Assembly (NCBI GenBank): GCA_022819745.1 | Contig: JAJEGS010000036.1 | Location: 62,001 to 126,000 of the forward strand | DNA length: 64,000 nt | Origin: Candidatus Latescibacterota bacterium | GTDB taxonomy: Bacteria; Latescibacterota; UBA2968; UBA8231 | Direction: 5' to 3' | Shown here: piece after piece, positions 4,114 to 63,264 of the stretch | Layout: each line of letters opens with the position of its first letter | Numbering within the stretch: position 1 is the stretch's first letter | Program-made: the position numbers and the translations under genes | The notes under the pieces: generated by a model | Seen by the model: only the letters and a program-made list of their open reading frames with translations | What the model was told of the DNA's origin: nothing | Database searches by the model: none

Positions 4114-6774
4114 GTGAACCGGAAATGGATGTTCTGGACGGCAATAGCCATGCTGTGGCTCGGCAGTGCTGCCGGAGCCCAGGAATACGGCGCTCGCACC
4201 GGCACGGTCAAAAGAGGCGGAGTGGTTTCCTTTGAGCCACAGGGCCCCGGCGTCCTGTTCGGTGCCCTCGACCCGGCCAAGCGCAGGTGGTACGTGCCGC
4301 AGGAGCTTTTTAACGAATACCAGTGGCGGCAGTGGGAATACTCCAACTACGCCCGCGATCACTACCAGCGCTACGTCAGCTCCATCCGCGAAGGCGATTA
4401 CTACTACGACCTCTACGGCAACCTCATCACCCGAGGCTGGCTGGTTTTCAACAACTCACAGACCCAACCTCGACAGTTTGGCTCTTCGGTGCTGAAGTCC
4501 AGAAATTTCGAGGGCTGGTTTAGCGGCTTGGTCATCTCGGCTGACTCCAAGGGCCAGCACCACTACGCCTTGACGGCCGGCACCAAGATCCGCTCGACCC
4601 TGACGCCGATGACCTTCTCTAAGCCGCGCTGGGACGGCATTCAATTCGACTACGCAGCCGACAAATACCAAGGCACCTTGATCTACTCGCGCCTCAGCCG
4701 CCCTGGCGGCACGTCAACCAACGATCAAGAGAGCTTGGTCACCAACGCCACATCCATGTTCGGCAGCCGCGCCACCGCGCAGGTGGGCGATTTCGCCACC
4801 TTGGGGCTGACCATGGTCAACGCCCACCAATCCAACACCCTCATCGACGGCTTTACCGGCAACCCCTTCACTGGCGAGCTTTCGGTCGATCAGAATCAGA
4901 CCGTCTCGATCATCGAGATCGTCCTGCGCGACGATAGCCCCGAGGACGGTGTCGGCGGCGCGGCCTTCTTCAGCGCCGGTTCGGACATCATCATCACTTA
5001 TCTCGACGGCACGCAAGACAACGGCAAGGCCATTCGCTTTGAACCGATCATCGAGGGCGGCCTCGTGGGAGAGGGCTTCCTTTCAGCCGATGGCACTGAG
5101 GAGATCCGCCTGCGCTACGACTTTGACAGCCCGGCCTTTGTCAACCGGGCCTCGGGCACTAAAGAAGAAATCAAAAAGGTCGAGTTCCGCCTCGTGCTGG
5201 GCAACGACTATCAAGTGTGGGTCACCTCCGACAGCCAGCTCAACGCCAGCGGCGAGTCCGTGCTCTTGCTCGTCTCCCAAGCCGAGGGCAACGTCCAAGA
5301 CAACACCAATTTGCAGATCGTCAGTTTCGACTACGGCCTGCCGACCTCCACCCAGATCTGGGGAGCAACCCTAGAGCTGCAAAAGGTTCTCGGCTTCGAC
5401 TTCTACGGCGAGTACGACCTCAGCTACAATTACACCAAGTATCCCAATGTAGTAGCCAAGACCCACACCACCTTCTCGGGCATCCGCGGCGACCGCGCCG
5501 CCTCTGCGTGGATGATGAACCTCTCGCGGGTCGCGTTTCCCTTCTTCTTCTTCGGCGAGGCATACAGCATGGATCCTCGCTATTCCACCCGCACATTCAC
5601 CGCTCAAGGAGATGGCTTTATCGACTACGAGGACGAACGCATCCACGTAGTCGAACTGGTCGAAGACAACGACGACCAAGACGAATTTCCCGACACCGTG
5701 CGCAAGGACTGGCAGACCGGCGACCCGAGCGTCTTCCCCGGCTGGGACGAGAACAACGACTTCATCTCGGATTTCAACCAGAACGACAACCGCTTCTTGA
5801 GCAACCTCATCCCGGACTACGAGGAGCCGTTCCTGCGCCACAACGTCGATCGGCCTGAATTCCTCTTCGGCATCGACCTGAACAACAACTTGTGGGTCGA
5901 TCGCTTTGAAAACGACGAACTGCCCGACTATCCCTACAAGAAAGATCACCAAGGATACAACGCCTACGGCGGCATCCACTTCACCCCAGAGCTGCGGCTG
6001 ATGGTCGGCGTCTTGCGCGAGGATCTCATTTCTTCCAACCAAAAAAACCACGCCAATTACGTCCTGCTGACCCTCGACCGCGACACCCCTGCTTGGGGTC
6101 GCTTCCGCGTCTTTGAGATGCTCAAGTCCACGACCGACGACATTCCCGACGACCTCTTGCAGTGGCTGCCCAACGCCAATATCCGCACTGGTGAACCGAC
6201 CAAAGTCGAGGATCCTCTCATCGCTCGCGACGCTTGGATCAACAGCCTGTGGGTCGGCCACGACTACAAGCTGCGCGGCCTGCTGACGGCCAATTACCTC
6301 AAATACGATCTGTACCACCAGCGGCTGAGTGCCAATGAGCGCGCGCTGTTGGGCCTGCGCGAGCGCGACTTTTTCTTTGGCCTAATCAACAAAATCAGCT
6401 ACCGCTTCGACTTTGGGCACCTGTGGCTAGAGCCGCGCTGGAAAAGCGAGTACCGCCGTCAGAGCCGCGACCTGATTTCAGCCGACGAACGCACCGAACT
6501 GGCCGAAATCGGCGGCTTCGTCCTCGGCTTTCCTCTGCTCAGCCACACGACCTTGCTGAGCGGGTTGGAGATGACCTTCCTCAACGATATGGAGCGCGAC
6601 TCCAACGACTTCAACGGCCTAGTTTGGGCCTTGCAGTTGTCCAATATATCCGACTATCTCGGCTACAAGGTTACGACCCATGCGGGCATGAAAATCGACC
6701 GCCGCCAGCCTCGGGGCGAGGATGCCGTGATTATTAATCAGATCTTTATTTCGATCTACGCGGGCTTGCAGTAG
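4114..6774 (+). CDS. Probable outer-membrane beta-barrel surface protein, 886 aa
   Basis: A GTG start is supported by AGGAGG ending 7 bases upstream and by the signal peptide that follows (MNRKWMFWTAIAMLWLGSAAGA). I recognise no named family. The middle (~residues 180-420) is beta-rich with a DGTQDNGKAIRFEPI stretch. The segment around residues 500-620 is very rich in Asp/Asn with EF-like loops (DFNQNDNRF, DLNNNLWVDRFEND), suggesting calcium-binding extracellular loops. The last 250 residues alternate hydrophobic and polar residues in strand-like blocks (YRFDFGHLWLEPRW, LLSHTTLLSGLEMTFL), and the C-terminus IFISIYAGLQ could be a closing beta strand. It lies downstream of a FlgD-Ig protein on the same strand, so a shared envelope role is likely. 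Outer-membrane location is inferred from composition only. Confidence 0.6.
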   Translation: MNRKWMFWTAIAMLWLGSAAGAQEYGARTGTVKRGGVVSFEPQGPGVLFGALDPAKRRWYVPQELFNEYQWRQWEYSNYARDHYQRYVSSIREGDYYYDLYGNLITRGWLVFNNSQTQPRQFGSSVLKSRNFEGWFSGLVISADSKGQHHYALTAGTKIRSTLTPMTFSKPRWDGIQFDYAADKYQGTLIYSRLSRPGGTSTNDQESLVTNATSMFGSRATAQVGDFATLGLTMVNAHQSNTLIDGFTGNPFTGELSVDQNQTVSIIEIVLRDDSPEDGVGGAAFFSAGSDIIITYLDGTQDNGKAIRFEPIIEGGLVGEGFLSADGTEEIRLRYDFDSPAFVNRASGTKEEIKKVEFRLVLGNDYQVWVTSDSQLNASGESVLLLVSQAEGNVQDNTNLQIVSFDYGLPTSTQIWGATLELQKVLGFDFYGEYDLSYNYTKYPNVVAKTHTTFSGIRGDRAASAWMMNLSRVAFPFFFFGEAYSMDPRYSTRTFTAQGDGFIDYEDERIHVVELVEDNDDQDEFPDTVRKDWQTGDPSVFPGWDENNDFISDFNQNDNRFLSNLIPDYEEPFLRHNVDRPEFLFGIDLNNNLWVDRFENDELPDYPYKKDHQGYNAYGGIHFTPELRLMVGVLREDLISSNQKNHANYVLLTLDRDTPAWGRFRVFEMLKSTTDDIPDDLLQWLPNANIRTGEPTKVEDPLIARDAWINSLWVGHDYKLRGLLTANYLKYDLYHQRLSANERALLGLRERDFFFGLINKISYRFDFGHLWLEPRWKSEYRRQSRDLISADERTELAEIGGFVLGFPLLSHTTLLSGLEMTFLNDMERDSNDFNGLVWALQLSNISDYLGYKVTTHAGMKIDRRQPRGEDAVIINQIFISIYAGLQ

Positions 6775-12378: not shown

Positions 12379-14469
12379 TTAGTACGCCACGCCGACGACG
12401 CGGCTCTGCTGGGCGTCGCCCGAATCCCCAGAGACAAAGACGCGAGCTACGTACAGGCCCGGAGGAACTAGCTGGCCTTGGTCGTCGCGGCCATCCCACA
12501 CTTTGTCTGTGTAACGACCGTTGGCCTCTTCGTCGTCAAAGAGGACGCGTACGCGCCGGCCGCTCAAGTCGTAGAGCGCGACCTCGACCGGCCGCGGGGA
12601 GCTCAGCGCCAGCAGGTTGTAGTGGATGATCGCCTCGTCGTTGATGCCGTCGCCATTGGGGGTAAAGGGATTGGGTGCTGCCTGCACTTGACCCAAGAGT
12701 TGCCCTTCGGCCAATACGGACGGGCTTAGTACCGTGGTACCGGAAAACGCGTCCTCATCCCCTGCGCCCAAAAAGGCCACATTGCCCGGGTCGATGACTT
12801 GGGCGGCACCCGGCTCGGTCGTCAGCCGCGCCGCCGCGGTGAAGTTGGTGCTGTACGTCAGCACGTTGGTCTGGAAGCGGATATGCACCTGCGTCTGGTC
12901 GTCGGCCACCATGGGGAAGCGCACGGCAAAGCGGTCGTCGGCCACCTCGGCAATGGCGAACTCTCCACTAGCCGCGTCGAGGCTGTCGAATTGATGCTCG
13001 GCCACAACCGCGCCAGCGCCATCGATGATCTGCACCGCGTCGATACTCGACACTCGCGCGGGTGTGTCGATCTCAATGGTGTCGAAACCGCGCAGGTCGT
13101 CTGTGCCCATAGCGGCGCGCACGGCAAAGGTAAAGGGCACTTCCTCAGACACCTGTACCTCGCGCGGAAAAACCTCGCCGACTAAGCCGTCGGCAAACGG
13201 CGGCGTCAACAAGTCGAAGCTCAGCGACTTGATCACTCGCGCGGCCTCCAGGTCGCTGCTATTAAAAACGACCTCAAACTGCATGTAGCGGCGCGGACTG
13301 GGCGAGACAATGGGCAGACCCGGACCGTTGGCCGCGTCTGCCGGATAAGGCGTACTGAAGGGACTCCAATTGATCAGGTCGTCGGTCACAGCCCCGGCCA
13401 TCCACTCGCGGCCTGCGGCATCGGTAATGGGCGTCTGCCCCGCCTTTTGGGGAAATTTCCGGTATTCGGCTAGGCCCATCTCTTCCCCGGGGTTTTCCAG
13501 CGAAAAAGGAATGTCGTCGGCGTCTTGCTTGCCGCGCAGCCGACGGGTGTACACAAAGGGCGAGATGTCTGTGCCCGTGCGCGTGCGGATCTGCGCGCTG
13601 GAGAAGCGCGGATCGCCCAACACCTCTTCCACCCAGCGCAGCGTGCCCCACACGGCAGGTTGCCCGGCGTCGAAAATGTCCGACACGTATTGGGCCCGCG
13701 ACAGAAAGCCCTTGCCGAAAATCTCGATCTCGTCGATCTCAAAATCTATCGGCGAAGTCGCCCGCAAGCGCAGGTGCTGGACGTAGCGCGGTGGGTCGAG
13801 CGGCACGTCGATAACCGCGACCTGGTTGTCGGTTTCGGCGATTAGCGGCCTCCAGATAGGCGTGTTCTCGCTGGTCAGGTTCAGGCCGTCGTTGGTAAAA
13901 AGCTCATAGGCCCGCAGGTAATCGTTTTGGAAGGGGGTCGAGGGCGAGGGCACGACCGTGTTGCGCGGATAGATGCGGATTCGCTCTACCCCGAAGCGCG
14001 CTCCTAAGTTGAGCAAGACTAGGATGCCGAGGGAATTCTGATTCTTGCGCTCAAAGGCCAACAACTCGCCGCCCGGCTCGTCCGACAGCAACTCCTTTAG
14101 CATCATCTCCAAGTCGAGCGGCTTGAACGTGCCGCTGAAGTCGAAGACATTGGGCGAGTCGATATCGCCGCCGCGTTCGATGGTGCCGACGGCCACGTTG
14201 TCCCCCTCGGCAATGCGCAGGGGCAGGATGCTGCGGGGAAAGTCATCGCGGGCGAATTCGACTAAGTCGCCAGGCGCGTTGCCCACCAGCAGGTTGTTGG
14301 GGTTCAAGGGGGAGCGGTGCTCGGCGTCAATGGTGATGACGATTGCCTCGCCTTCGCCCTGCCAGTCCAAGTCGCCGCCCTCTCCAATAGAGACCGTGTC
14401 GAGAGCCCAACTTCCGCTCGGCAGCCAGAGCACTAAGACAAGGCCGACTGCGGCACAATGCGCTTTCAT
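12379..14469 (-). CDS. Secreted FlgD-Ig C-terminal surface protein, 696 aa
   Basis: Several in-frame ATGs exist (14496, 14487, 14475, 14469). I choose 14469 because GGAGA sits 6 bases upstream and the protein then opens directly with a signal peptide (MKAHCAAVGLVLVLWLPSGSWA). It is a paralogue of the proteins at 947 and 14615: FLSRAQYVSDIFDAGQPAVWG, WVEEVLGDPRFSSAQIRTRTG, WSPFSTPYP, SPSPRRYMQFEV, VGEVFPREVQVSEEVPF, then NPFTPNGDGINDE and a FlgD-Ig domain ending in GVAY. The 947 and 12379 products share the order discoidin-like part, RTRTG module, FlgD-Ig. It is transcribed divergently from the paralogue at 14615, with ~145 bases between the starts. Exported structural or binding protein; no catalytic motif seen. 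Confidence 0.85.
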   Translation of the reverse strand: MKAHCAAVGLVLVLWLPSGSWALDTVSIGEGGDLDWQGEGEAIVITIDAEHRSPLNPNNLLVGNAPGDLVEFARDDFPRSILPLRIAEGDNVAVGTIERGGDIDSPNVFDFSGTFKPLDLEMMLKELLSDEPGGELLAFERKNQNSLGILVLLNLGARFGVERIRIYPRNTVVPSPSTPFQNDYLRAYELFTNDGLNLTSENTPIWRPLIAETDNQVAVIDVPLDPPRYVQHLRLRATSPIDFEIDEIEIFGKGFLSRAQYVSDIFDAGQPAVWGTLRWVEEVLGDPRFSSAQIRTRTGTDISPFVYTRRLRGKQDADDIPFSLENPGEEMGLAEYRKFPQKAGQTPITDAAGREWMAGAVTDDLINWSPFSTPYPADAANGPGLPIVSPSPRRYMQFEVVFNSSDLEAARVIKSLSFDLLTPPFADGLVGEVFPREVQVSEEVPFTFAVRAAMGTDDLRGFDTIEIDTPARVSSIDAVQIIDGAGAVVAEHQFDSLDAASGEFAIAEVADDRFAVRFPMVADDQTQVHIRFQTNVLTYSTNFTAAARLTTEPGAAQVIDPGNVAFLGAGDEDAFSGTTVLSPSVLAEGQLLGQVQAAPNPFTPNGDGINDEAIIHYNLLALSSPRPVEVALYDLSGRRVRVLFDDEEANGRYTDKVWDGRDDQGQLVPPGLYVARVFVSGDSGDAQQSRVVGVAY

Positions 14470-14614
14470 GTCCATTCTCCGTGCCATTTGCTGCATAAAA
14501 CAATCAAAATACAGCCATAAATCAAGTTAAATGCGGTGTGCTATGCACATATCCGAACTTGCCAAACCTACCTCTCCTTTCTTTATATTACCGACATCTC
14601 AAGGAAGAGACGCC

Positions 14615-16735
14615 ATGCAGTATATCATTGCTTCGTGTTTCCTGCTCGTCCTGTCGATTGCGCCAGCGCACAGCCGGGGAGAATTTCGCGTCGGGGGCGA
14701 CGAGGGCAACCCTTGGCTCAATCTGTTGTCTGAAGAAGGAGCCGGCGAGTACTGGCTCTTCGATCTCGAGGGTCAGCTCGTGAGCACCGAACCCGTGGGC
14801 GTTACGCCCCACGGCGTGGCTGCCGACACCCTCATCGACTTTGCCGACAACGCCATCGGGCCGCGCTTCATTGACCCGGCGGTCAACCTGACCCTGACCG
14901 ACCCCAATTCCTCGTCCATTAAAATTCCCCTGCCTTATATCGGCGGCGAAGCCCAGACCACCGATGGCTGTGGTGCCGTCGATAATCATACTCCCGTAGT
15001 CAAGAAGCAATTCGATGGCGATGTGACCACCGCCCACTTCCGCCGCTTCACTCCAGGCCAGGGCATCTTCAGCGGCGGCAGAATCATCGCCGGGGTAACC
15101 GGCGAAGGCTGGAAAAATTCCGTGGTCATAGATTTTCGTGCGGCCGTGCCCGTCAACCGCATCCGCTTCTTTCCCCGCCTCGGCCAAGAGGACGACCTAT
15201 TGCTCATCAATGAACTTACCGAGCCTCGTCCCCCTTTGGAAACCTTTGGCGTAGATAGCTTTGCCAGCAACTTTCTCGCTTGGTATGAAATCCGCGTCGG
15301 CGACAACAGTGCGCGCTTTGCCAACAGCCCCTGTGACAAAGTCAGCCGCGTCACCAAGGGTCTGCGCTGGGTGCGCAACCAAGATCCCCAGCTCACGGTG
15401 CTCGAATCCAATCGTGAAAATCTCGATCCAGTAATCGAACTGCGCTTCCCCACCGAGTCAATCCGCTGGATCACGGCTCAAGCCTTCCCTTTGCGCGACT
15501 GGGAGGTCGCCGAATTCGAGGTGTACGGCGAGGGCTTTGTCGAGGAGACCGTCCTCGTCACCCAGATCCTCGACTTTGGCCAGCCAATCAATTGGGGCAA
15601 AATTCGCTGGGATGCCGACGTGCCCGAGGGCACCCGCATCGAGGTTCGCACTCGCACCGGCAACACCCCCGATCCCAGCCTCTACTTCGACGAAAACATC
15701 AACGGCGACATCCGCCCGATCACCTTGGCCGAGTACGAAAAGCTCGACCCGTCCGGCCGCCTGCCCACCGTGTACGACACCGACAACTGGAGCTTCTGGT
15801 CGCCGCCCTACGACTTTGCTGCGGGCTTGCGCGACAGCGACGAGCCGGCTGAAGCGTGGCGCGACGGCACGCCGCTTTTGTCGCCTGGGCCGAGCCGCTA
15901 CATCCAACTCGCCTTTCGCCTATTCTCCACCTTTACCACTGCACCCCGCATTCGCTCATTTACGCTCCAATTCGGCGATGCACCAGCCGCCCGCCAAATC
16001 CTCGGCGAGGTGTGGCCCATTGCCGTCGATTCTTTCGCGCCCACGGAATTTACGTACGTCGTCCGACCGGAATTTAGCGCCGATGACACCGGCTTCGACC
16101 GACTGGAGATCCGCACCCACGCCCAAGTCCAATCCATCTCTAAGGTCAAACGCGACGGCACCGAACTCGACTTGAACGATTTTGTCCCAGATATCCAAGC
16201 CGACCACTTTGTGGTGTCCTTCCCCCGCTTGCAAGGCGAAGACGACAGCTTTAAACAGCTCGAAGTGAGCTTTGTCGTGCCGATCTTGCGCTTTGGCACC
16301 GAATTTTCGGGCTGGGTCTTCGACAGCAACGACCCCGACCAGATCAAACAGCAAGTTCGTCCGGGCAACGCCACCTTTCGCTTTTCGGGCGACGCCCTCG
16401 CCGTCAACACCCCCGTCGGCGGCCGGCTCCTCGTCGATATTGCCGTGACTTCCAACCCGCTTACCCCGAACGGCGACGGAGTGAACGAGACCGTGGAAAT
16501 CGCCTACAAGCTGCGCGAAGTTACGGCTAGCCGCCCAGTGCGCCTAGCGATCTACAATCTCGCCGGCCAACTCGTAGTCGAGTTGCCGCCCATCACCGCA
16601 CGCAGCGGCGAATTCGCCCATCGCTGGGATGGCCGCGACGACGCCCAACAGCTCGTGCCCCCGGGCACCTATATCTGGCGGTTGCAACTAGAAGAGAAGG
16701 AAGAACGCGCTGGTATTCTCTCAGTCGCTTATTGA
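14615..16735 (+). CDS. Secreted FlgD-Ig C-terminal surface protein, 706 aa
   Basis: The start is placed at the ATG at 14615, 28 codons inside the longest frame, because AAGGAAGAG lies just upstream and a signal peptide (MQYIIASCFLLVLSIAPAHS) follows. Paralogue of the 947 and 12379 products: WYEIRVGDN and VNRIRFFPRLG in the discoidin-like part, ILDFGQPINWGKIRWDADVP, VRTRTGNTPDP, WSFWSPPYDF, SPGPSRYIQLAF, LGEVWPIAVDSFAPTEF, then NPLTPNGDGVNETVEIAY and a FlgD-Ig domain ending SVAY. A strong terminator follows within 30 bases, so this is a single-gene unit or the end of one. Cell-surface location is inferred from the signal peptide and tail. Confidence 0.85.
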   Translation: MQYIIASCFLLVLSIAPAHSRGEFRVGGDEGNPWLNLLSEEGAGEYWLFDLEGQLVSTEPVGVTPHGVAADTLIDFADNAIGPRFIDPAVNLTLTDPNSSSIKIPLPYIGGEAQTTDGCGAVDNHTPVVKKQFDGDVTTAHFRRFTPGQGIFSGGRIIAGVTGEGWKNSVVIDFRAAVPVNRIRFFPRLGQEDDLLLINELTEPRPPLETFGVDSFASNFLAWYEIRVGDNSARFANSPCDKVSRVTKGLRWVRNQDPQLTVLESNRENLDPVIELRFPTESIRWITAQAFPLRDWEVAEFEVYGEGFVEETVLVTQILDFGQPINWGKIRWDADVPEGTRIEVRTRTGNTPDPSLYFDENINGDIRPITLAEYEKLDPSGRLPTVYDTDNWSFWSPPYDFAAGLRDSDEPAEAWRDGTPLLSPGPSRYIQLAFRLFSTFTTAPRIRSFTLQFGDAPAARQILGEVWPIAVDSFAPTEFTYVVRPEFSADDTGFDRLEIRTHAQVQSISKVKRDGTELDLNDFVPDIQADHFVVSFPRLQGEDDSFKQLEVSFVVPILRFGTEFSGWVFDSNDPDQIKQQVRPGNATFRFSGDALAVNTPVGGRLLVDIAVTSNPLTPNGDGVNETVEIAYKLREVTASRPVRLAIYNLAGQLVVELPPITARSGEFAHRWDGRDDAQQLVPPGTYIWRLQLEEKEERAGILSVAY

Positions 16736-16935: not shown

Positions 16936-17838
16936 ATGCAAGAGCGAACCAAATTTGTTTTAGCGGCAGCTTTGGTCATGGGCATGTGCGGTACGTCCTT
17001 TGGCCACGCGCCTGCCGGCGAGCTCTATTTCGCCGTGCAGTTCCCCGACAACCTCGTCCCCACCATGGACGGCGATTTGTCGGACTGGGACGTCGTGCCG
17101 ATCGATCCGTACACGATCCGCAACGACCGTCTCTATTCGCCGGTGGCCGACATCCAGCCCGTGGGCCGTGGCGAGATCGATGTCAGCGACATCAATATCC
17201 GCCATCTCATCGGCTGGAACGACAGCGCAAATAAGCTCTACTACGCGACCGAGGTCTTCGACAATGTCCACAACTTGGACCGCGAAAACCCCTCGGCCTT
17301 CTGGCAGGACGACGCTTGGGAAGTAGAGGTCAACCCCGACCACACGCCGACCGAGGAGCACAACCTTGAAGGCGAGCCGGCCAACAACTTTAGCTACAAA
17401 TGGGCCGTGCCGCCGGTCGAAGGAGCCTATCAGTTCTACCGTCCGGTAAGCGCGCTCGAGTGGCTGGTAGATGGCAGCGACTGGGTGGACTTTGGCTGGG
17501 GCTACGATGGCGAGCAGTTCGGCGAGAGTACCTATTACTACGAATTGGCCATCACGCCGATCACCTCGTTGCCCAACGACGCGTCGGCCACCCCCGATCA
17601 AGCTGTGGTTTTCGACCTCGCGGAAGACGAGATCATTCACACGTCCGTGACCGTGGGCGACTTCGACGAGGCGTGCACCGAGTGCGTGCTCGAAAGCTAT
17701 CAGGGCTTCTGGACCATGTCACCGGAGATGTGCTGCACGGCTACCAACGATGTGTTGCTGGATCAGCTATTGCCGGAGATGGAGTCCGCGACCGCCGTCG
17801 AGGACGTGAGCTGGGGCCAGATCAAGGCCGCTCAGTAG
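16936..17838 (+). CDS. Secreted CBM9-like carbohydrate-binding protein, 300 aa
   Basis: AAGGAGG precedes the ATG and the product has a signal peptide (MQERTKFVLAAALVMGMCGTSFG). The mature part fits the family-9 carbohydrate-binding/DOMON-like sandwich: DGDLSDWDVVPIDPY, then GWNDSANKLYYATEVFDN, then DDAWEVEVNPDH, the usual order of that fold. No catalytic domain is attached, so it probably binds a sugar, heme or related ligand in the envelope. The C-terminus TAVEDVSWGQIKAAQ closely resembles that of the TolB-like protein at 32709 (TSVEARSWGRIKVL), suggesting a common tail. It stands alone between two strong terminators. Confidence 0.7.
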   Translation: MQERTKFVLAAALVMGMCGTSFGHAPAGELYFAVQFPDNLVPTMDGDLSDWDVVPIDPYTIRNDRLYSPVADIQPVGRGEIDVSDINIRHLIGWNDSANKLYYATEVFDNVHNLDRENPSAFWQDDAWEVEVNPDHTPTEEHNLEGEPANNFSYKWAVPPVEGAYQFYRPVSALEWLVDGSDWVDFGWGYDGEQFGESTYYYELAITPITSLPNDASATPDQAVVFDLAEDEIIHTSVTVGDFDEACTECVLESYQGFWTMSPEMCCTATNDVLLDQLLPEMESATAVEDVSWGQIKAAQ

Positions 17839-53834: not shown

Positions 53835-53869
53835 GGCCGTTCGTCGACGGGCGAACGGCCTTTTTATTT
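53835..53869 (+). terminator. Intrinsic terminator after helical-repeat gene
   Basis: GGCCGTTCG / CGAACGGCC, 9-bp stem, 8-base loop, then TTTTTATTT. It overlaps the last codons of the convergent lptG-like gene. Confidence 0.85.
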
Positions 53870-54937
53870 GTGCACGCGCCACAGCAAGACCAAGGCCAAG
53901 ACGGCAAACAACAGGTTGGCTATCCACGCGCCTAGCCAAGGCGAGAGGATTTGATTCCAACCGAGGGCTTGGCCGGCCTTGACGCAACTGTAATAGACAA
54001 AACAGATCAGGACGCCCAAGCCAAAGCTGTTGGCCAAACCGGCGCGGCGGGCATTGGCACCGAGGGTTGCACCGAGGGCGATGATGATGAAGCTAGTTAG
54101 GGGAAAGGATATTTTCAGGTGCAAATCGACGCGCTGGCGCGTAGCGTCCTCCCCGTTGAGCGTGGCGCGGGCGATGTAGTCGGCCAACTCGGCGTAGTTC
54201 ATTTCCTCGGGGTCCTTTTGCTGGCGAGCAAAGTCGCTGGGTAGCAACGACAAGCTCGGCAGAGATAGGGTATCGAAGGAAGAAGTCGCCACAGCTTCGC
54301 CCTCGGTAAAGCGAAAGCGACGGCCTTCGAAAAGCACCCAAGTGCCCTCCCGCCACTCCATGCGTCGGGCCACCGCGCGCTCCAGCGGAGTGTAGCCGTG
54401 CAGCCGCTCCCAAGACACTTCGTCGGCGCGTTGCCGCCCCGCATCGTAGCTGCGGGCGTACACGAACTGGCTGCCCGCGTCTTGGAGCAGGACTTGGCGG
54501 CGGGAGCCGTCGCTGCGGTGATAGGACTTAATCTCGTCGCTGATTTGATTGTACCGATAGGTAGCAGGCGGGACCACCCAATCAGTAAAGAAAAAGGCCG
54601 CGACCGAAACGGCGAGAGCGCACGCCAAGACTGGGGCCAGTAGGCGATACAGGCTAATGCCAGTGGCCTTCATGGCGGTGATTTCGTTTTGGCGTGCCAA
54701 GCTGGTCAGGGCAAAGAGTGCGCCTAGCAGCGCGGCGATGGGCAGGGTCAAGATGAGCCAGTACGGCAACCGATAGACGTAGTAAAGCAAGATTTGCTCG
54801 GGACGAGCCTCAAAGTCGATAAAGGTGTCGATGTTCTCAGTGAGGTCGATGATCACCGCAATGAGCAACAGGCTGCCCACGGCGATCCCTAGACACAACA
54901 GGAAGCGGCGCGTCAGATAGAGGTCGAGGGTGCGCAT
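53864..54937 (-). CDS. lptG: Lipopolysaccharide export permease, LptG-like (YjgP/YjgQ family), 357 aa
   Basis: Family pattern: MRTLDLYLTRRFLLCLGIAV at the N-terminus, LPIAALLGALFALTSLARQNE after the second helix pair, and two C-terminal helices (LGVLICFVYYSCVKAGQALG, AWIANLLFAVLALVLLWR). Three hydrophobic helices, a ~150-residue periplasmic beta-jellyroll, then three helices. With LptF and the LptB ATPase it pulls LPS from the inner membrane. It is one base downstream of the lptF-like gene on the same strand. Which copy is F and which is G is assigned by order and length and is tentative. Confidence 0.88.
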   Translation of the reverse strand: MRTLDLYLTRRFLLCLGIAVGSLLLIAVIIDLTENIDTFIDFEARPEQILLYYVYRLPYWLILTLPIAALLGALFALTSLARQNEITAMKATGISLYRLLAPVLACALAVSVAAFFFTDWVVPPATYRYNQISDEIKSYHRSDGSRRQVLLQDAGSQFVYARSYDAGRQRADEVSWERLHGYTPLERAVARRMEWREGTWVLFEGRRFRFTEGEAVATSSFDTLSLPSLSLLPSDFARQQKDPEEMNYAELADYIARATLNGEDATRQRVDLHLKISFPLTSFIIIALGATLGANARRAGLANSFGLGVLICFVYYSCVKAGQALGWNQILSPWLGAWIANLLFAVLALVLLWRVHK

Positions 54938-54938
54938 C

Positions 54939-56237
54939 TCAGGTCTCTTGCGCCCCTCGGCGGCCAGCGCGATCGTACGCGACTAACCACAACAACCCCC
55001 ATCCGACAAGGGCGAAAACCCCATTGGGCGCCCACATCGCCAACGGCGGTGGAATATAGCCGCGGTCGGCCAACTCCTCGCCGCCGATGAGGAACATCCA
55101 GTAGATCCAAAAGAAGAACAAGCTGATGCCGACAGAGACGGCCGCGCCGCGCCGGCGAATCAGCGCACCCAATGGGGCACCGACCAGCGCGAAGACCAAA
55201 CAAGCGGCCGGAATGGATAGCTTCTTGTGAATCTCGACCAAGTACTCGTTGATCCGCCCCGCGCGCCGGTCTATGTGCCGCCACTGTCGGCGCAGGGCCT
55301 CGGTCGCCTGTTGCCCTTCTCGCGCTAGCTCACTGGCCGTAGAATCGGCGAACTGGCTTTGGTGCAGTTTGAGGTAGCGCGCGGCAATCGAATCGAGGCG
55401 TCCGTAGGCGCGCTCCTGCTCACCGCGGCGCTCTAGCACCAAGCGGTGCATGGCCGCGATGTCTAGCTCGCGGTCGCTGCGGTAAGACGAGGGGCGGTGC
55501 TCGTAGCGGCGGCGCTCGTCCTTGATGTGCAGCACTTGGCGGGCAAAAGTGCCGTAGAAAAAGCGCTCCTCTTGGCCGGCTTCGACGCGCTGGACATGGC
55601 CTTCCTCCAACTCCAAGCGGATGTAAGCTCCATCGCCCAACAGCGCGAGGCGGCCCTTAGGGGCGTGGACAATCACCGGCGGCCCAGGGCGCGAGGCGTC
55701 GTAGAGTGCGATGCCGGCCAGTTCGTTAGTCTCTGGGTCAATCTGGCGGATCAGTAGGTGATAATCGCCCAAGTCGGGTATGAAGACCCCTTCCCTTTCC
55801 CGCAGCACCAAGGCCGCTTTCGTCCGTTGCAAGCTCGACGACAGGACGCGGGTTTGGTGGTTCCAGTCCGGGAGGATCTGGTCGTTAAAAAGCACCATTA
55901 ACAGGGTGAGCAAAAAAGCGGCTACCAGCACCGGCCGCAGGAGCAGCCAAAAGCTCACCCCGCAGGCTTTGGCCGCGATGATTTCCCCGTCGGCGGCGAG
56001 GCGAGCAAAGGCCATGAGCACGGCGATGAGCACGGCCATAGGCACGGCCAGCGCCACGATCCAAGCCAAGTTAAAGAGCAAAAGTTGGAGCGCCGCCAGC
56101 AGGGTTAGCCCCTTGCTCAACACTTGGTCCATCGTCTGCAATACGACGTCGATCAGCAGGATGAAGAGAATCAGCGCAAAGCCGAGCGCAAAGGGCCAAC
56201 CGTGCTCTTTGAGCACATAGCGGGACAGGGTCGTCAT
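54939..56237 (-). CDS. lptF: Lipopolysaccharide export permease, LptF-like (YjgP/YjgQ family), 432 aa
   Basis: N-terminus LSRYVLKEHGWPFALGFALI, then VPMAVLIAVLMAFARLAADGE, the conserved YjgP/YjgQ loop, and a C-terminal block KKLSIPAACLVFALVGAPLG with RRGAAVSVGISLFFFWIYW. The periplasmic domain is extended by a ~100-residue charged helical section (RLVLERRGEQERAYGRL ...) not typical of E. coli LptF. It is the first gene of the pair. Presence of both subunits shows a diderm envelope with LPS. Confidence 0.88.
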   Translation of the reverse strand: MTTLSRYVLKEHGWPFALGFALILFILLIDVVLQTMDQVLSKGLTLLAALQLLLFNLAWIVALAVPMAVLIAVLMAFARLAADGEIIAAKACGVSFWLLLRPVLVAAFLLTLLMVLFNDQILPDWNHQTRVLSSSLQRTKAALVLREREGVFIPDLGDYHLLIRQIDPETNELAGIALYDASRPGPPVIVHAPKGRLALLGDGAYIRLELEEGHVQRVEAGQEERFFYGTFARQVLHIKDERRRYEHRPSSYRSDRELDIAAMHRLVLERRGEQERAYGRLDSIAARYLKLHQSQFADSTASELAREGQQATEALRRQWRHIDRRAGRINEYLVEIHKKLSIPAACLVFALVGAPLGALIRRRGAAVSVGISLFFFWIYWMFLIGGEELADRGYIPPPLAMWAPNGVFALVGWGLLWLVAYDRAGRRGAQET

Positions 56238-56697: not shown

Positions 56698-59600
56698 ATG
56701 GGTGTGAATTTAGAGGTGTTTCTCCGCTTTTCCCGCCAAGCGTTTTCCTCGTGGCTGTGTGTTTGCTTGCTCGCGGTAGTGGTACGCGCCGAGCCTGGTC
56801 TGCACTTCGAGCCGTTATACGGCCCGCTTTCCCAACGCTTTGCCGTCCCTAGCCAAACTGCCTTTGGGACTGGCCAGCCGCTCTTGCCCGCCCCCGCCCG
56901 CGCGCTGATCTCGTACCAAGCCGTAGTGGACTCCTTGGGAATGGCCCACTACGGCCGCCGCGTCAGTGGATTCACCGAGGGACCAACAGTCACCGTGACT
57001 CTAGACGACTATCTCCGCATAGAGTACCAAGCGAGGCACCAACGGCTTTGGCACCAGCAAATCCGCCGCGATTTTCGCAGCACAGCTTCCGAGCAGCGCC
57101 AGCGCCGGGGCAGCCGCTTTGAGTGGACGGTGCCCTTTTCCGCGCCCAAACCCCTGCGGCGCTTTATCGGCGACCAAGGCCCCAGCCTCGCACTCAATGG
57201 CTCGCGCACCATAATCATTTCTGGCAAGAGCGAGTGGACCGATGGCGAGGTGCAGACCTCGTTTGGCCGCAGTTCCAAGTTCCCCTCGCTGGGCATCGAA
57301 CAGGAATCCGATTTCACGGTGGAAGGCAAAGTCGGCGAGTTGATCAACATCCGCATCGATCAAGACACCCAAAACCTCGGCTCGGCCTTTGGCTCCGGTT
57401 TGGGCGATCAGCTATCCAATCAGATCAAACTCGACTACGAAGGCGAGGAAGACTCCATATTCCAAGAGGTGCAGGCCGGCAACACCACTTTAGAGCTGCC
57501 CAATACTCGCTTCGTCGGCTTCCGGCAGAAAAACAAGGGCCTTTTCGGCATCCGCGCTAAAGGGCACGTCGGGCCGCTGGCCTTTACGACCGTAGCCAGC
57601 CACGAAAAGAGCAAGTCTAACCGCCAGACCTTCAAGGGCGGAGCGGCCATCGACACGCTTCAGCTCAGAGACTACCAATACATCCGCAATACGTATTTCT
57701 TCTTACACGAATTCTACCGCGCCCACCTTTCCGACTTCCGCAGTTTGTTGGAAGGAGTGCAGTTTGGCCCAGAAAACTTCGTCGATATCAGCCGCCTCGA
57801 GGTCTATATCAACGACTTCAATACGCGGAATGACGCCGAGCTATTCGCCAGACCCGGCGTTGCTTGGGTCGATCCGTCCGACTCCCTCTCCACCATCGAG
57901 TGCTTTGACGCGGCGGACAATCGCCTACGCAACAGCGGCTGCTCTGAGGAGGGGACCTGGCACCGGCTCGACCCGGACGACGACTACTCGGTCGTGGCCG
58001 AGGCGGGTTATATCGTCCTCAACAGGCCCGTATCTGACCCCTATGCCATGGCCGTGCATTTCAAAACCAACGCGCCGGACTTCGACGGCACGCTCCAACA
58101 GGAGACAGCCCGGCTCAAAGCCGGCGCAGAATCCGACTCCTTGTATCTGAAGCTGATCAAAGCCCGCAATCCCCGTCCGGGTTTTCCCACTTGGAATCTA
58201 GAGTGGAAAAACGTGTACCGCATTGCCTCTGGTTTTTCCACTGGCCGCCGCTTCGACCCCAAGACTTTGCAGGTCGATATCGCCAAGGAAGTGCCCGGCC
58301 AAGAGGACCAACTTTCGCAACAGGGTCGCTCCTACTTGCAGATTTTGGGCTTGGACGAGCGCGGCAAAGACCCCGGTAGCGCGCCCGACCGCGTTATCGA
58401 CGCCGACTACATAGGGCTGGACGACATCCGCGGGCACTTGATTTTCCCCGACCAGCGGCCCTTTGATCCACGCTCCAACAAATATCGCGGCCTACTCGAC
58501 GAACCCGTCCCTGCCATCTACGACGAGCAGCAGCAACGCGCCCAGATCGAGGCCAGCCGCTACAAAATCCTCGTCCGCGCCGCCTCCTCAGAGCAGCGCA
58601 TCCGGCTGGGCGGCATCTTCGGCGGCGTCCGGGCCGAGACCGTGGAGGTCCAGCTAAACGGTCGCCCTCTGACGCGAGACACCGACTACCGAGTCGATTA
58701 CACAGGCAGCGTGACGTTTCTCGGCTCGGTCGCTCAGGAAGTGGCAGACCCCGGCGCGGACTTGGAAATCTCCTTTGAATCCGAGGATGTCTTCAACATC
58801 GGCAGCCAGCAAAAGACCCTGTTGGGCTTGCGCACCGAGTACGAGTTCTGGGGCGGCGACGGGCGCGTGGGCAGCACCATGATCTACAACAACGAGCGTT
58901 CGAGCGACCGGCGGGTGCGGGTGGGCAATGAGCCGACGCGCACGGTGATCTGGAACCTCGACTTGCGCGCCCGGCGCGAAGTGCCAATCCTCACCCGCGT
59001 CGTCGATATGCTGCCGCTGGTCAAGACGGCCGTTCCCTCGGAAGTGACCCTTGACGCCGAAATCGCGCAAAGCCGCCCCAATCTCAACACCAAGGGGCGC
59101 GGCTACATCGACGATTTTGAAGACAGCGAGCGGCCCATTTCCCTAATCGTCAACCGCACGCGCTGGGCACCGGCTAGCGCACCGGTTGGCGCGCGCTTCG
59201 GCGCGGAAAATCGCACGCATTTCATCTGGTACAATCCCTACGACGGGGTGCTGCGCACCGACATCTGGCCCAACCAAGAAGAGCAAATCGAAGCCCAAAA
59301 CCGACGCACCGACATCCTAGCGCTAGAGCTGCTGCCGCGCCTCGAAGCCGCCGAGTCTTGGGGCGGAGTCTCCCTCGCCTTTTCGACTGTCAACGACTTG
59401 TCCGAGTCCAAGTTCCTAGAGATTTGGGTCCGGGGCGAAGAGGGCACCTTGCACGTGAACTTAGGGGACCAAATCAACGAGGATTACATCGCCAATGGCC
59501 GCCTCGACACCGAAGACGAGCCTTTCCCCGGACAAGCCGCAGGAGACGGGTTGGTGTCGCGGGAGGAAGACGTGGGCATCGACGGCCGCAACGACGAAGC

Positions 59601-62600
59601 CGAATTGAACTTCTACTTGCGGCTGCAAGACGCTGCGTTCGACACCACCCGCTCCCTAGCCGAGCGGAAGCAGGCCTTTGCCGCGCTCTACCCAGACCCC
59701 GATCCTCTGCGCCCCAATCGCTCATCCGACGACCCCGAGGGAGACAACTGGAAATACGACTCCCAACGCAACAAGAACGATTACAGCCACATCAACGGCA
59801 CCGAGAACAACAAAAAAGATGTCGCAAGCGGCGACCGCCCGGACACCGAAGACCTCAACAACAATGGCGTGCTCGACCGCCGCAACAACTACTACCACTA
59901 CGAAATCGACCTGTCGTCGAGCCATTACGAGGTCGCCGGGACTCAAAACGAAGGCTGGCGTCAGCTCCGCGTGCCCCTGTTCGGCCCCCATGTCGAGCGC
60001 GTGGGCTTGCCCGACTCCACCCGCATCGAATACGCGCGCCTGATGCTTTCAAGCGGGCTGCAGTCGGACGTAGCAGACACCGTGCGAGCCGAGATCGCGC
60101 TGGTGGAAATCGTGGGCAACAAGTGGCAGGAAGACGAAGTAGTGCGGCTCGATGATCGCTTCCCGCTCGGCGACCGCGAGGCCCTCGACGTCACGGTCAT
60201 CGGCACCGACAAGAGCCAGAGCTACCGACCGCCACCTGGCGTGAAAATCCGCCGCAACGTGCAGTCGCGCACCCGCGAACGCGAGCAGTCCCTCGTACTG
60301 GCCTACGAAAACCTAGAGCCTGGGCACCAAATGTCGGCGACTCGCATCCTGCCCCGCTCTGCCAATTACACCAGCTACGAGCGGCTGCGCATGTACGTCT
60401 ATGGCGATTCGAGCGGAACCATTGAATACGCCCACGGCGATTCGAGCGACTTGGTGCTCTTCGTGCGCTTTGGCGTGGATTCGACCAACTACTACGAGAC
60501 CATCAGCCCCATTTTCCCGGGTTGGACCGGAGGGCGCAAGGGCTGGAAGGGCAATCAAGTAGATGTGGATTTGCCGGTCATCTCCCAACTCAAGGCCCTG
60601 CTGCAATCCGGGCAGGCCGATACCACCACGGGCGAGTTCTACTACACTTACCGGGTAATCGACCCGCGCGGGGCACCGCTAGACGGCAAGAGCTTGATCG
60701 CTCAGCGCGAGTTGGAGGCGCTGCACGCGGCTGGCTACGACCCCCAAGTCGAGCGCTTTTCCCTAGACCAAATTTTTGCGCGGTCGGGCCTGCGCAGCGG
60801 CGAGCAAGCCATTTACCGAGTGCGCGGCAACCCGTCAATGCAGTCGATCAAACAACTGAGCATTGGCCTGCGCAACCGCGCTGCAAACCGCGCGTACAGC
60901 GGTCGCATCTTCCTCGACGAGCTGCGCCTCGACGAGGCGCGCAACGATCCCGGGCTGGCCGCGTACGCCCAGCTCAACACCAAGCTAGCCGACTTTGCCA
61001 ACCTCGGCGGCAACGTGCTCTGGCGGCAGGAAAACTTCCGCAGCTTTACCGGCCAAGGAGGCAACAGCACAGACCGCGAAACTGCGTTGTCGGTCTCCAC
61101 CAACGCGCAAAAGCTCCTGCCGAGTAGTTGGGGTTTTTTAATCCCGGTCAAGGTAAATGTTAGCCGTTCGACTAGCTTGCCGCGCTTCGGCCCCGGCTCG
61201 GATGTGGAACTGACCGCCGAAGAAAAGCTAGAGCAACAAGCCGTTCGCTCCAAGGAATTCTACGACGTGTCCATCAGCCGGCGGCAGGGCAAAAACTTCT
61301 TCTTGCGCTGGACCCTCGACCAGATGAACCTGCGGCTGTCGCATTCGCGCGAACACAGTTCAGATCCGGTGCGCCCAATCAACGAGCGCGAAGCCCAGAC
61401 CATGAACTTCAACTACAGCATGCCCCTGCCCAAACCAGAACTGCGGATCATGCGCTGGTTGCCGGAGTTCATGCCCACGGGCTGGACGCGGATGGAGTTT
61501 CGCCCGCTGCCGACGAGCCTGACCTACGCGGTCAACGGCAGCCGGCGCACCTCGCGGCTTTTGCGCCGCGGCGACGACGAACCGACCGCACAGGAGGACT
61601 TTGCGCTCGTCGAAACCTATGCCTCTAAGCTCAATCCGCTCTCTGGTCTATCGGCCAACTACAACCTCAAAATCGACCGAGACTTGCGCAAAAAATTCGT
61701 CCCCGACAAGCGCAGCTTTGGGCGCGAGGTCGGGCGCAGACAAACAGCCGACTTGGGCTTTTCGCTGCGCTTAGTCTCGTGGCTGGACCAAAACTACACC
61801 TTCAAGGCCAATTACGAAGAGCAAAATGACCCAGCGCAGCGGCGCGGAGTGGCCCCGATCGATTCAATCAGCGGCCTGCCGTTCAATACCCTCGACATCG
61901 ACACCCGGAATGACCTCTCGGCCCGTCTCAATCTCAAAATCCCAACCCTGCTCAAGAATTTGGGCAAGGCCCCGGGGCAAAGCCGCAAGGCGCAACAGCG
62001 CGCCGACCGAGACCGCAATCGCAATCGAAACCGAAACATAGACGAGGACGCGCCGACCTCGAAGGAAGGCCAAGCTGAGCAGAAGCAAAGCCAAGCCGAG
62101 GAAGAGCAAAGCCAAGCCGAGGAAGAGCAAAGCCAAGCTGAGGAAGAGCAAAGCCAAGCTGAGGAAGAGCAAAGCAAAGCTGAGGAAGAGCAAAGCAAAG
62201 CCGACCAGAAAAAAAACCAAGCCCAAGAAGAGCAAAGCAAAGCCGACCAGAAGAAAGACCAAGCCAAAGAGGAGCAAAGTAAAGCAAAACCGCCGCAAGG
62301 CCCCAATATCCTCCGCCGCCTCGCCGGATGGACTGGCCGCCTCGTCGAGCCGGTCAACGCCAGTTGGCGGCGCAACACCACCTCGCGCCGCTTCAATTTG
62401 CTGCAGCGGCCTTCGCTCTCCTATCAACTCGGCCTTGAAGACACCCTGCGGGTGCGGCAAGTGACCCAAGGGCTGACCCACCAAGACAATTGGTTGCACA
62501 CATCCTCGTTTGAGGCTGGTTCGGGGATGCGGTTGCCCTTTGGTATTAGTGTCAAAGTCAACTCCAAGGAGCAGACCACCGAGCGCAGCGGCGCTTCGCA

Positions 62601-63264
62601 GCAACGGCTGCGCTTGCGCAACGAGCGGACCTACCCGCGCGTGAGTCTTAGCTGGGGACGAGCCGACCGGATTCCGTTGATAAAGCGAGTGATCAACAGC
62701 GCGCAGGTAAACGCGAGTTTCGAGACCTCGGAGGCCAGCGAGGGCGAGGGCAGTCTCGCGCCCGGCCACCTGCTCTCTGAGGAGACCAAGACCGAGTTTA
62801 GGGCGTCGTGGAATGGCCGTTGGCGCTGGGGACCGACCACGACCATTGAGCGCGTACTCTCCACCTCGGAAAGCCGCGATTTTGAACCAACTGCCGAGGG
62901 AGACAGCGGCGAGCAGCCTCTGCGCGGCACTCGCGACCGAGAGCAGGTGACCACCACCTTCAAGATCACTCATAATCTCAAGCCGCGGCGACTGCCCCTA
63001 ATAGGCCGGCTCAAAAGCGACGTCACCCTCAACTTAGAACAGAAGTTTGAAGGAGAAACGCGCTCCATCGCCACCGGCGACGAAGAGCGCGTCCCCAATG
63101 GCAAAGAAAACCGCTGGCGCACTCAGTTGTCCATGACCTACAACTTCAGCACGAATTTCCGCGGCGAGGGGCGAATTCGCATCGAAAACAACAAAGACCA
63201 CCTCAGAGACAAGACGCGAAAAATCCGCGAAGTGCGGCTTTCGGGCACGTTCTTCCTCCGCTAA
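56698..63264 (+). CDS. sprA: SprA-like giant outer-membrane protein (gliding / type IX secretion translocon family), 2188 aa
   Basis: The SprA N-terminal signature is clear: LDYEGEEDSIFQEVQAGNTT followed by LFGIRAKGHVGPLAFTTVAS, and later YIDDFEDSERPISL and the SPIFPGWTGGRKGWKG region. N-terminal hydrophobic stretch after a basic segment is the export signal. The long C-terminal half has alternating beta strands and ends VRLSGTFFLR, as a barrel should. In Flavobacterium, SprA is a ~2400-aa, 36-strand barrel that is the T9SS translocon. The homologue here is slightly shorter and has a charged tandem-repeat insert (residues ~1795-1864). The three FlgD-Ig surface proteins in this window are natural cargo candidates (inference). 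The GTG/ATG choice is not critical; no Shine-Dalgarno is seen. Confidence 0.87.
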   Translation: MGVNLEVFLRFSRQAFSSWLCVCLLAVVVRAEPGLHFEPLYGPLSQRFAVPSQTAFGTGQPLLPAPARALISYQAVVDSLGMAHYGRRVSGFTEGPTVTVTLDDYLRIEYQARHQRLWHQQIRRDFRSTASEQRQRRGSRFEWTVPFSAPKPLRRFIGDQGPSLALNGSRTIIISGKSEWTDGEVQTSFGRSSKFPSLGIEQESDFTVEGKVGELINIRIDQDTQNLGSAFGSGLGDQLSNQIKLDYEGEEDSIFQEVQAGNTTLELPNTRFVGFRQKNKGLFGIRAKGHVGPLAFTTVASHEKSKSNRQTFKGGAAIDTLQLRDYQYIRNTYFFLHEFYRAHLSDFRSLLEGVQFGPENFVDISRLEVYINDFNTRNDAELFARPGVAWVDPSDSLSTIECFDAADNRLRNSGCSEEGTWHRLDPDDDYSVVAEAGYIVLNRPVSDPYAMAVHFKTNAPDFDGTLQQETARLKAGAESDSLYLKLIKARNPRPGFPTWNLEWKNVYRIASGFSTGRRFDPKTLQVDIAKEVPGQEDQLSQQGRSYLQILGLDERGKDPGSAPDRVIDADYIGLDDIRGHLIFPDQRPFDPRSNKYRGLLDEPVPAIYDEQQQRAQIEASRYKILVRAASSEQRIRLGGIFGGVRAETVEVQLNGRPLTRDTDYRVDYTGSVTFLGSVAQEVADPGADLEISFESEDVFNIGSQQKTLLGLRTEYEFWGGDGRVGSTMIYNNERSSDRRVRVGNEPTRTVIWNLDLRARREVPILTRVVDMLPLVKTAVPSEVTLDAEIAQSRPNLNTKGRGYIDDFEDSERPISLIVNRTRWAPASAPVGARFGAENRTHFIWYNPYDGVLRTDIWPNQEEQIEAQNRRTDILALELLPRLEAAESWGGVSLAFSTVNDLSESKFLEIWVRGEEGTLHVNLGDQINEDYIANGRLDTEDEPFPGQAAGDGLVSREEDVGIDGRNDEAELNFYLRLQDAAFDTTRSLAERKQAFAALYPDPDPLRPNRSSDDPEGDNWKYDSQRNKNDYSHINGTENNKKDVASGDRPDTEDLNNNGVLDRRNNYYHYEIDLSSSHYEVAGTQNEGWRQLRVPLFGPHVERVGLPDSTRIEYARLMLSSGLQSDVADTVRAEIALVEIVGNKWQEDEVVRLDDRFPLGDREALDVTVIGTDKSQSYRPPPGVKIRRNVQSRTREREQSLVLAYENLEPGHQMSATRILPRSANYTSYERLRMYVYGDSSGTIEYAHGDSSDLVLFVRFGVDSTNYYETISPIFPGWTGGRKGWKGNQVDVDLPVISQLKALLQSGQADTTTGEFYYTYRVIDPRGAPLDGKSLIAQRELEALHAAGYDPQVERFSLDQIFARSGLRSGEQAIYRVRGNPSMQSIKQLSIGLRNRAANRAYSGRIFLDELRLDEARNDPGLAAYAQLNTKLADFANLGGNVLWRQENFRSFTGQGGNSTDRETALSVSTNAQKLLPSSWGFLIPVKVNVSRSTSLPRFGPGSDVELTAEEKLEQQAVRSKEFYDVSISRRQGKNFFLRWTLDQMNLRLSHSREHSSDPVRPINEREAQTMNFNYSMPLPKPELRIMRWLPEFMPTGWTRMEFRPLPTSLTYAVNGSRRTSRLLRRGDDEPTAQEDFALVETYASKLNPLSGLSANYNLKIDRDLRKKFVPDKRSFGREVGRRQTADLGFSLRLVSWLDQNYTFKANYEEQNDPAQRRGVAPIDSISGLPFNTLDIDTRNDLSARLNLKIPTLLKNLGKAPGQSRKAQQRADRDRNRNRNRNIDEDAPTSKEGQAEQKQSQAEEEQSQAEEEQSQAEEEQSQAEEEQSKAEEEQSKADQKKNQAQEEQSKADQKKDQAKEEQSKAKPPQGPNILRRLAGWTGRLVEPVNASWRRNTTSRRFNLLQRPSLSYQLGLEDTLRVRQVTQGLTHQDNWLHTSSFEAGSGMRLPFGISVKVNSKEQTTERSGASQQRLRLRNERTYPRVSLSWGRADRIPLIKRVINSAQVNASFETSEASEGEGSLAPGHLLSEETKTEFRASWNGRWRWGPTTTIERVLSTSESRDFEPTAEGDSGEQPLRGTRDREQVTTTFKITHNLKPRRLPLIGRLKSDVTLNLEQKFEGETRSIATGDEERVPNGKENRWRTQLSMTYNFSTNFRGEGRIRIENNKDHLRDKTRKIREVRLSGTFFLR
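62080..62289 (+). repeat. Ten-copy 21-bp in-frame tandem repeat within sprA-like gene
   Basis: Exactly ten 21-base units with the type GAAGAGCAAAGCCAAGCC; each encodes (E/Q)EEQS(Q/K)A-like heptads. Middle units are almost identical, the last ones drift to Lys-rich versions. The encoded heptads predict a highly charged helix or coiled coil. The repeat is preceded by an Arg/Asn run (RDRNRNRNRN). Confidence 0.92.

Follow-up and report, generated by a model that had tools for sequence, protein, structure and literature searches.

The window analysed here, a stretch of 64,000 nucleotides from Candidatus Latescibacterota bacterium (contig JAJEGS010000036.1 of assembly GCA_022819745.1, positions 62,001 to 126,000), carries genes of a putative type IX-like secretion route: a predicted outer-membrane translocon (SprA), three candidate cargo proteins with C-terminal sorting domains (CTDs) and, directly behind the first of these, a predicted outer-membrane barrel, here named P6 (Table 1). 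An earlier note, made from the letters of the window, had assigned the 2188-residue product of the open reading frame (ORF) 56698-63264 to SprA, and this assignment was borne out: the protein scores 610 bits against NCBIfam TIGR04189 (cut-off 200; expectation value (E) 1e-182), contains the Pfam domain SprA_N (PF14349; E 2.5e-24) and matches the solved SprA of Flavobacterium johnsoniae (PDB 6h3i) at E 1.2e-49. Its identity to the SprA of Parabacteroides is 22%. On these sequence matches, the ORF is a genuine SprA.

The three candidate cargo proteins end in the motif (P/S)NPxTPNGDG, a FlgD-like Ig domain and a final VAY, in agreement with the TPNGDG, FlgD-Ig domain and VAY of the earlier note; the shared domain spans approximately 100 residues and carries TPNGDG close to its N-terminal end. 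The Pfam family CHU_C (PF13585, 'Type IX secretion signal domain') was detected above its cut-off in each (29.4 bits for cargo 1, and only barely for cargo 2; Table 1), and all three fell short of cut-off with the NCBIfam models of type A and type B sorting domains. Structural comparison of the modelled CTD of cargo 3 returned the sorting domain of Porphyromonas gingivalis PorU as the best solved match, with the CTDs of PorZ and mirolase also among the structural matches listed. In 24 stretches from the window's own family of genomes (f1, see below) that had not been selected for this feature, some of which overlap, PNGD combined with a final [VILM][AV]Y occurred in 4/328 genes, three of the four being the window cargo (1/283 genes outside the window). 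The three proteins had been thought to form a special matching trio; they are instead members of a large paralogous family. Full-length relatives of cargo 2 and cargo 3 (approximately 41-45% identity over some 700 residues) lie beside P6 genes in stretches centred on P6, cargo 1 relatives adjoin P6 genes in the P6-centred stretches of genomes G005 and G008, and relatives of cargo 2 are already labelled 'gliding motility-associated C-terminal domain-containing' in databases. By eye, the signal peptides of the proteins at 947 and 4114 are seemingly cut before Gln (SADA/QKG and AAGA/QEY, respectively), resembling the Q-rule described for Bacteroidetes.

Table 1. Features of the window that are discussed in the text (coordinates refer to the window)
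Feature	Position	Strand	Basis and remarks
Cargo 1 (candidate), discoidin-like domain and sorting domain, ends VAY	947..3958 (ORF 890-3958)	+	PF22633, PF00754, PF13585
Sorting domain (CTD) of cargo 1	3662..3955	+	alignment, PF13585
P6, predicted outer-membrane barrel, 886 residues, directly behind cargo 1	4114..6774	+	paralogous family; model; structure matches
TPR membrane protein (PMT_2-like) after P6	6842..9055	+	recurrent P6 neighbour
Cargo 2 (candidate), ends VAY	12379..14496	-	PF13585, 27.5 bits (cut-off 27)
Sorting domain of cargo 2	12382..12681	-	alignment
Cargo 3 (candidate), ends VAY	14615..16735 (ORF 14531-16735)	+	PF13585, 43.6 bits
Sorting domain of cargo 3	16436..16732	+	alignment; modelled from 16433: seven strands, best match PorU CTD
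300-residue protein, signal-peptide-like N-terminus (by eye)	16936..17838	+	no Pfam family; recurrent P6 neighbour
LptF/LptG, two genes divergent from sprA	53864..56237	-	PF03739; synteny; context, outside the route
SprA, predicted outer-membrane translocon of the type IX route	56698..63264	+	2188 residues; TIGR04189, PF14349, PDB 6h3i; tree follows lineage

SprA loci with 95-99% identity to that of the window are labelled Gemmatimonadota or Latescibacterota, while the labels of relatives down to approximately 50% SprA identity are mostly Latescibacterota, Gemmatimonadetes and Handelsmanbacteria. The lineage is Latescibacterota and lies outside the Bacteroidota, in line with the earlier note; the public labels are those of the depositors, with Gemmatimonadota mixed in. 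Records of metagenome-assembled genomes titled Gemmatimonas phototrophica (L043) and Gemmatimonadaceae (L035) carry a SprA that belongs to the lineage (identities of 53% and 50%, respectively), and since that of L043 falls inside the f1 clade of the SprA tree, the labels or bins of both may be wrong. The comparison set consisted of 60 relatives and 14 control genomes, the nearest of which shares 24% of sampled 31-letter words with the window. The relatives were divided into families f1 (to which the window belongs; n=25), f2-f4 (n=22) and f5-f9 (n=13), and two complete genomes of the window's genus were available.

A TIGR04189 profile search identified SprA in 59/60 relatives (58 above cut-off) and in 0/14 controls, and sorting domains were present in 60/60 relatives. 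With SprA nearly universal in the lineage, there is almost no group of relatives without sprA against which the co-occurrence check proposed in the earlier note could be set. Similarly, the PorV family exceeded its cut-off in all 60 relatives (controls 1/14, below cut-off); the PorV copy beside PorU in genome G001 scored 158 against a cut-off of 250 for the narrower PorV equivalog. PorU lies outside the window and was seen in the relatives. The search for porU homologues that the earlier note had suggested was positive, with matches at E 0.001 in 60/60 relatives and above cut-off in 34/60 (controls 2/14, none above cut-off), including a full-length match of 634 bits in G001. Canonical PorU was distributed by family, being found in 22/25 f1 genomes, 0/22 of f2-f4 and 12/13 of f5-f9. 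Type A sorting-domain matches number 6-22 per genome in f2-f4 (which have no canonical PorU) and 24 to at least 80 in f1, and f3 genomes without canonical PorU or P6 (e.g. G031 and G029) have up to 27-30 PorV-family matches.

PorV adjoins PorU in all 15 of the fetched stretches centred on canonical PorU; the other five of the 20 stretches fetched, which were chosen for other reasons, show no porU-porV pair. The same gene order is found in Parabacteroides. Behind PorV there usually follow a protein of approximately 1000 residues and one of approximately 1050 residues. All three of the former that were scanned match the NCBI family 'T9SS-dependent M6-like inactivated metalloprotease' below cut-off, and the single scanned representative of the latter combines a PD40/TolB-like propeller with a sub-cut-off match to peptidase-MA. 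The PorU matches below cut-off include a relative of approximately 1900 residues; the one scanned (L112) matches both PorU and PorU2 (NF052324) and has a type A-like tail, in each case below cut-off. PorP/SprF (TIGR03519) did not pass its cut-off in any of the 60 relatives, with weak matches in 9/60.

The PorU of family f1 departs from its homologues at the active site. In 25/25 sequences from 21 f1 genomes, a Ser is found at the aligned position of the catalytic Cys (AAS, mostly as TAASQVG) and the His of the GHG motif is kept. The Cys is retained in 9/9 PorU sequences from f5-f9 and in 8/8 of the approximately 1900-residue relatives (seven from f1 and one from f3). When aligned to the P. gingivalis PorU structure 6za2, one Ser-type sequence placed its Ser over the Cys of TATCDF, and a Cys-type sequence placed its Cys at the same position. 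From the chain numbering, we read the substituted residue as probably C690. The porU C690A allele is termed a catalytic mutant in PMC5562754, where RgpB with a retained CTD co-migrated with PorV. The Ser-type PorU may either cut by a different chemistry or act as a scaffold only.

Searches for the motor and ring components gave a different outcome. GldM, GldN and GldL did not pass their cut-offs in any of the 60 relatives, nor did GldM in eight additional genomes (four with a KSB1 label), in searches that had no Bacteroidota positive control; for GldL two very weak matches (E 6e-4 and 8e-4) were obtained. GldK likewise passed its cut-off in 0/60 relatives; weaker matches occur in 56/60 and, again below cut-off, in 4/14 controls. 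Those of the weak GldK matches that were listed fall on the C-terminal half of the profile; the presence of such matches in controls is as would be expected for FGE-like proteins. Genomes G048, G052 and G056 have SprA and PorU above cut-off, yet no GldK candidate. No motor gene candidate was recognised among the neighbours of sprA, some of which have no family. A Parabacteroides record labelled 'plasmid' carries sprA and porU-porV, with no gldKLMN annotated in 350 of its 388 kb (its gene table being incomplete), and was not used as a positive control for GldM. As the searches had no Bacteroidota positive control, the absence of GldKLMN is likely and not proven, and we consider it probable that recognisable motor genes are truly absent.

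P6 matches no Pfam or NCBIfam family (nor was a Pfam family found for P0006, P0012 and the cluster-12 protein of L099). Among 7991 database candidates scored, 863 are P6 relatives at E 0.001, and of the best 120 of these, those naming an organism are annotated as hypothetical and come from Latescibacterota or Handelsmanbacteria. At E 1e-20, P6 was found in 35/60 relatives: 25/25 of f1, 0/22 of f2-f4, 2/3 of f5, 4/4 of f6 (weak), 0/2 of f7, 3/3 of f8 and 1/1 of f9. Matches per genome reach at least about 15, some f1 genomes showing no more than four or five, and the two complete same-genus genomes contain 60 and 50 matching places, respectively. The P6 model (predicted local distance difference test (pLDDT) 68.5, predicted template modelling score (pTM) 0.69) matches outer-membrane barrels; the 50 matches listed (VIA-align) include TonB receptors (FhuA and BtuB), ushers and many porins. 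SprA and PorP/SprF are not among these 50, which does not exclude either of them. The possibility that P6 is a shrunken SprA was rejected (hhalign probability 0.6%).

The genomic position of P6 connects it with the cargo. In genome G005 (complete, same genus), the fetched stretches contain 47 P6 ORFs with a length of 700 residues or more, and a check by tblastn revealed no omissions. Of these, 33 directly follow a same-strand gene with a PNGD sorting domain (median gap 17 bases), and all 33 of the paired cargo end in [VILM][AV]Y; nine follow another P6, and five follow something else, including one case in which the second gene upstream encodes a CTD. In a subset of 14 P6 genes from G008, ten follow a CTD gene, three a P6 and one another gene. 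In other genomes, 17/19 P6 genes have a CTD gene in front. This count derives from 20 stretches with 24 P6 ORFs located by script, six of which had no upstream gene in view, plus a 25th P6 (L227); of the 18 that could be scored, 12 were paired by script, five by reading the tails (TPDGD, TPNND, VIY at the end and, in two f8 genomes, VVF) and one had no CTD gene in front, as was also the case for the 25th. The fractions 33/47, 10/14 and 17/19 give the share of P6 genes with cargo in front and not the share of cargo with a P6. Once the three pairs with the weakest P6 matches had been left out of the 33 in G005, P6 distance correlated over the remaining 30 with distance between cargo bodies (r 0.61) and with that between CTDs (r 0.39; both p 0.0001). 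Two further proteins recur at these loci: the ten relatives of the TPR membrane protein and the 12 relatives of the 300-residue protein (Table 1) all lie no more than two genes from a P6, in stretches that were chosen around P6.

The surroundings of sprA are also conserved, the lptF-lptG order divergent from sprA being kept in most fetched stretches, KSB1 included. Pfam assigned LptFG, a CTP-transferase-like (CoaD-like) protein and DprA among the neighbours; PilM-like, ComEA-like and M28-peptidase-like proteins were recognised by eye, and some neighbours have no Pfam family. Just 3' of sprA in L027 (16956-18877), PilM-like and PilN/O-like proteins were noted by eye (no Pfam match), and the PilM-like cluster has 16 members across the compared stretches. 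Within SprA, residues 1789-1864 (window 62062-62289, in the second half of the protein) form a charged low-complexity repeat (QSQAEEEQ...), which gave a DevB match below cut-off in NCBIfam. Additionally, separate ORFs of 373-1426 residues in several relatives (e.g. G049:C99:5752-5955 and G028:C1:3259676-3259951) show weak matches to approximately positions 570-705 of the SprA model, possibly representing a shared SprA-like module. Elsewhere in the window, two neighbouring proteins encoded at 27311-31077 on the minus strand each join ABC2-type membrane segments to LVIVD repeats and lie next to an ABC ATPase.

A quick SprA tree with a midpoint root was built from 21 rows of this lineage, five KSB1/SpSt rows and one Parabacteroides row. 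The lineage rows form a single clade (support 100) in which genome families largely group together, the KSB1/SpSt rows are separate and the Parabacteroides row is a long branch. This topology fits vertical descent, for which a single Bacteroidota row is a thin test; a recent acquisition of SprA from Bacteroidota is not favoured, given one clade of lineage rows compared with that one row.

A type IX-like route in this lineage is well supported. The earlier proposal is partly supported, namely at the outer membrane, with PorV and sorting domains throughout the relatives, PorU in more than half of them and a matching CTD fold. The note had named a genome lacking gldKLMN or porV as grounds against its proposal, and the result in this respect is mixed, as porV is present while none of gldK, gldL, gldM and gldN reached its cut-off. 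The system is described here as type IX-like at the outer membrane and is not classed as a full type IX system. Our preferred reading, to which we assign a probability of roughly 0.72, is that Latescibacterota possess such a route with P6 as the probable receiver or anchor of the neighbouring cargo. The cargo would cross the inner membrane into the periplasm by means of its Sec signal peptide, the C-terminal Ig-like domain would then engage SprA and, by homology, we infer exit across the outer membrane through SprA. PorV-family carriers and PorU would handle ordinary sorting-domain proteins, while the TPNGDG...[AV]Y cargo, including the three in the window, would constitute a separate class, which P6 most likely receives and anchors at the surface, as SprF/PorP does for type B cargo.

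Several points weigh against this reading. GldKLMN, which the Bacteroidota system uses, do not pass their cut-offs in the 60 relatives. The analogy with SprF is drawn from gene order and barrel fold, since profile comparison shows no similarity between P6 and SprA and no PorP/SprF exceeded its cut-off. The P6 model is of middling quality and matches barrels in general, and a sequence-profile search of the PDB with the CTD ranked FlgD highest, PorU reaching no better than E 0.33. In the window, two of the three cargo genes (cargo 2 and cargo 3) have no adjoining P6. Furthermore, P6 shares its nearest neighbour with the cargo body in 16/30 pairs and with the CTD in 11/30, and correlated divergence of P6 and cargo could also be expected from pairs that duplicate as units.

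The same gene pairs might instead serve nutrient uptake in the manner of SusD and SusC, whereby the CTD protein binds a glycan, P6 imports it and SprA only delivers the binder to the surface. The variable copies numbering in the dozens in complete genomes of the genus, the discoidin-like domains of cargo 1 and of the cargo of L192 and L181, and the large P6 barrel with TonB receptors among its structure matches (together with many porins) are consistent with this. It nevertheless appears doubtful, as cargo 2 and cargo 3 show no sugar-binding domain recognised by Pfam, and P6 has no Pfam family, so that no TonB-receptor plug or barrel model fires (the SusCD families were not searched for). A further possibility is that SprA has another task, for instance in outer-membrane biogenesis near lptFG, and that the FlgD-like Ig domain is structural in proteins exported or retained by other means. 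While the conserved divergent lptF-lptG pair (in KSB1 also), the lack of a motor at cut-off and the rank of FlgD as the best sequence-profile match of the CTD would suit such a role, the lineage has PorU and PorV, encoded side by side as they are in Parabacteroides, and in structure the CTD compares best with a PorU sorting domain, the PorZ and mirolase CTDs also being listed; this explanation is accordingly regarded as very improbable.

It may also be argued that motor genes exist in a form that has diverged too far for recognition by the NCBIfam models, in which case the system would be an ordinary type IX system. A silent search without a Bacteroidota positive control does not show absence, and the two very weak GldL matches point in the same direction. 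Conversely, the NCBIfam models for SprA, PorU and PorV give scores of hundreds of bits, three genomes combine SprA and PorU above cut-off with no GldK candidate, and no motor-like gene was recognised beside sprA or porUV (some neighbours having no Pfam family), which makes a diverged motor rather unlikely. At the opposite extreme, the route might be motorless and diversified in its carriers, with dozens of TPNGDG...[AV]Y cargo proteins in f1 each passed from SprA to the cognate P6 encoded beside it and with an f1 PorU that uses a Ser nucleophile or is an inactive scaffold, possibly in a form ancestral to the motorised one of Bacteroidota; this we offer as speculation and consider unlikely.

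A 2016 survey reports type IX systems only in Bacteroidetes, using models that include GldK-N (PMC4793230), and type IX genes have already been suggested for other phyla of the Fibrobacterota-Chlorobiota-Bacteroidota (FCB) group (PMC11285876). In Poribacteria, sorting domains were described for which the authors, having detected no Por structural genes, stated that a pathway 'remains to be revealed' (PMC3909097); bins from the Gulf of Mexico likewise contain large numbers of such domains, with the route left unexplained (PMC5596340). Databases already label Latescibacterota proteins as SprA; no type IX study of Latescibacterota was found in the literature, subscription papers and preprints aside. 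As far as the literature was searched, the pairing with P6, the Cys to Ser replacement in PorU and the motor gap alongside SprA, PorU and PorV are new. Gate, carrier, sortase and tags occur together in an uncultured lineage in which no known motor was detected. It thereby becomes possible to test whether transport through SprA depends on a rotary motor and which components are the ancestral ones, and the cargo-barrel pairs provide a large natural set for studying how carriers recognise cargo.

SusC-SusD systems comprise many paralogous pairs of a barrel and a surface protein. The cargo-P6 pairs resemble them in this respect and differ in that P6 has no TonB-dependent receptor family. The PorU of the relatives shares with PorU (6za2) and PorU2 (NF052324) a full-length match and the GHG His, but in f1 has Ser in place of the catalytic Cys. 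In common with the type IX system of Bacteroidota, the lineage has SprA, the PorV family, PorU, adjacent porU-porV genes and an Ig-like CTD whose fold matches that of the PorU CTD; it differs in that no GldKLMN or PorP/SprF was found at cut-off and in the PorU replacement in f1. A further parallel is with type B cargo (SprB-SprF and PG1035-PorP), with which it shares a CHU_C-like CTD, cargo genes beside a gene for an outer-membrane barrel and several such pairs per genome, an arrangement described for Bacteroidota in PMC9143113. PorP/SprF is a 14-stranded FadL-type barrel, whereas P6, at approximately 890 residues, is an unrelated barrel, and the 47 P6 ORFs of G005 compare with ten PorP-like proteins in F. 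johnsoniae (PMC9143113).
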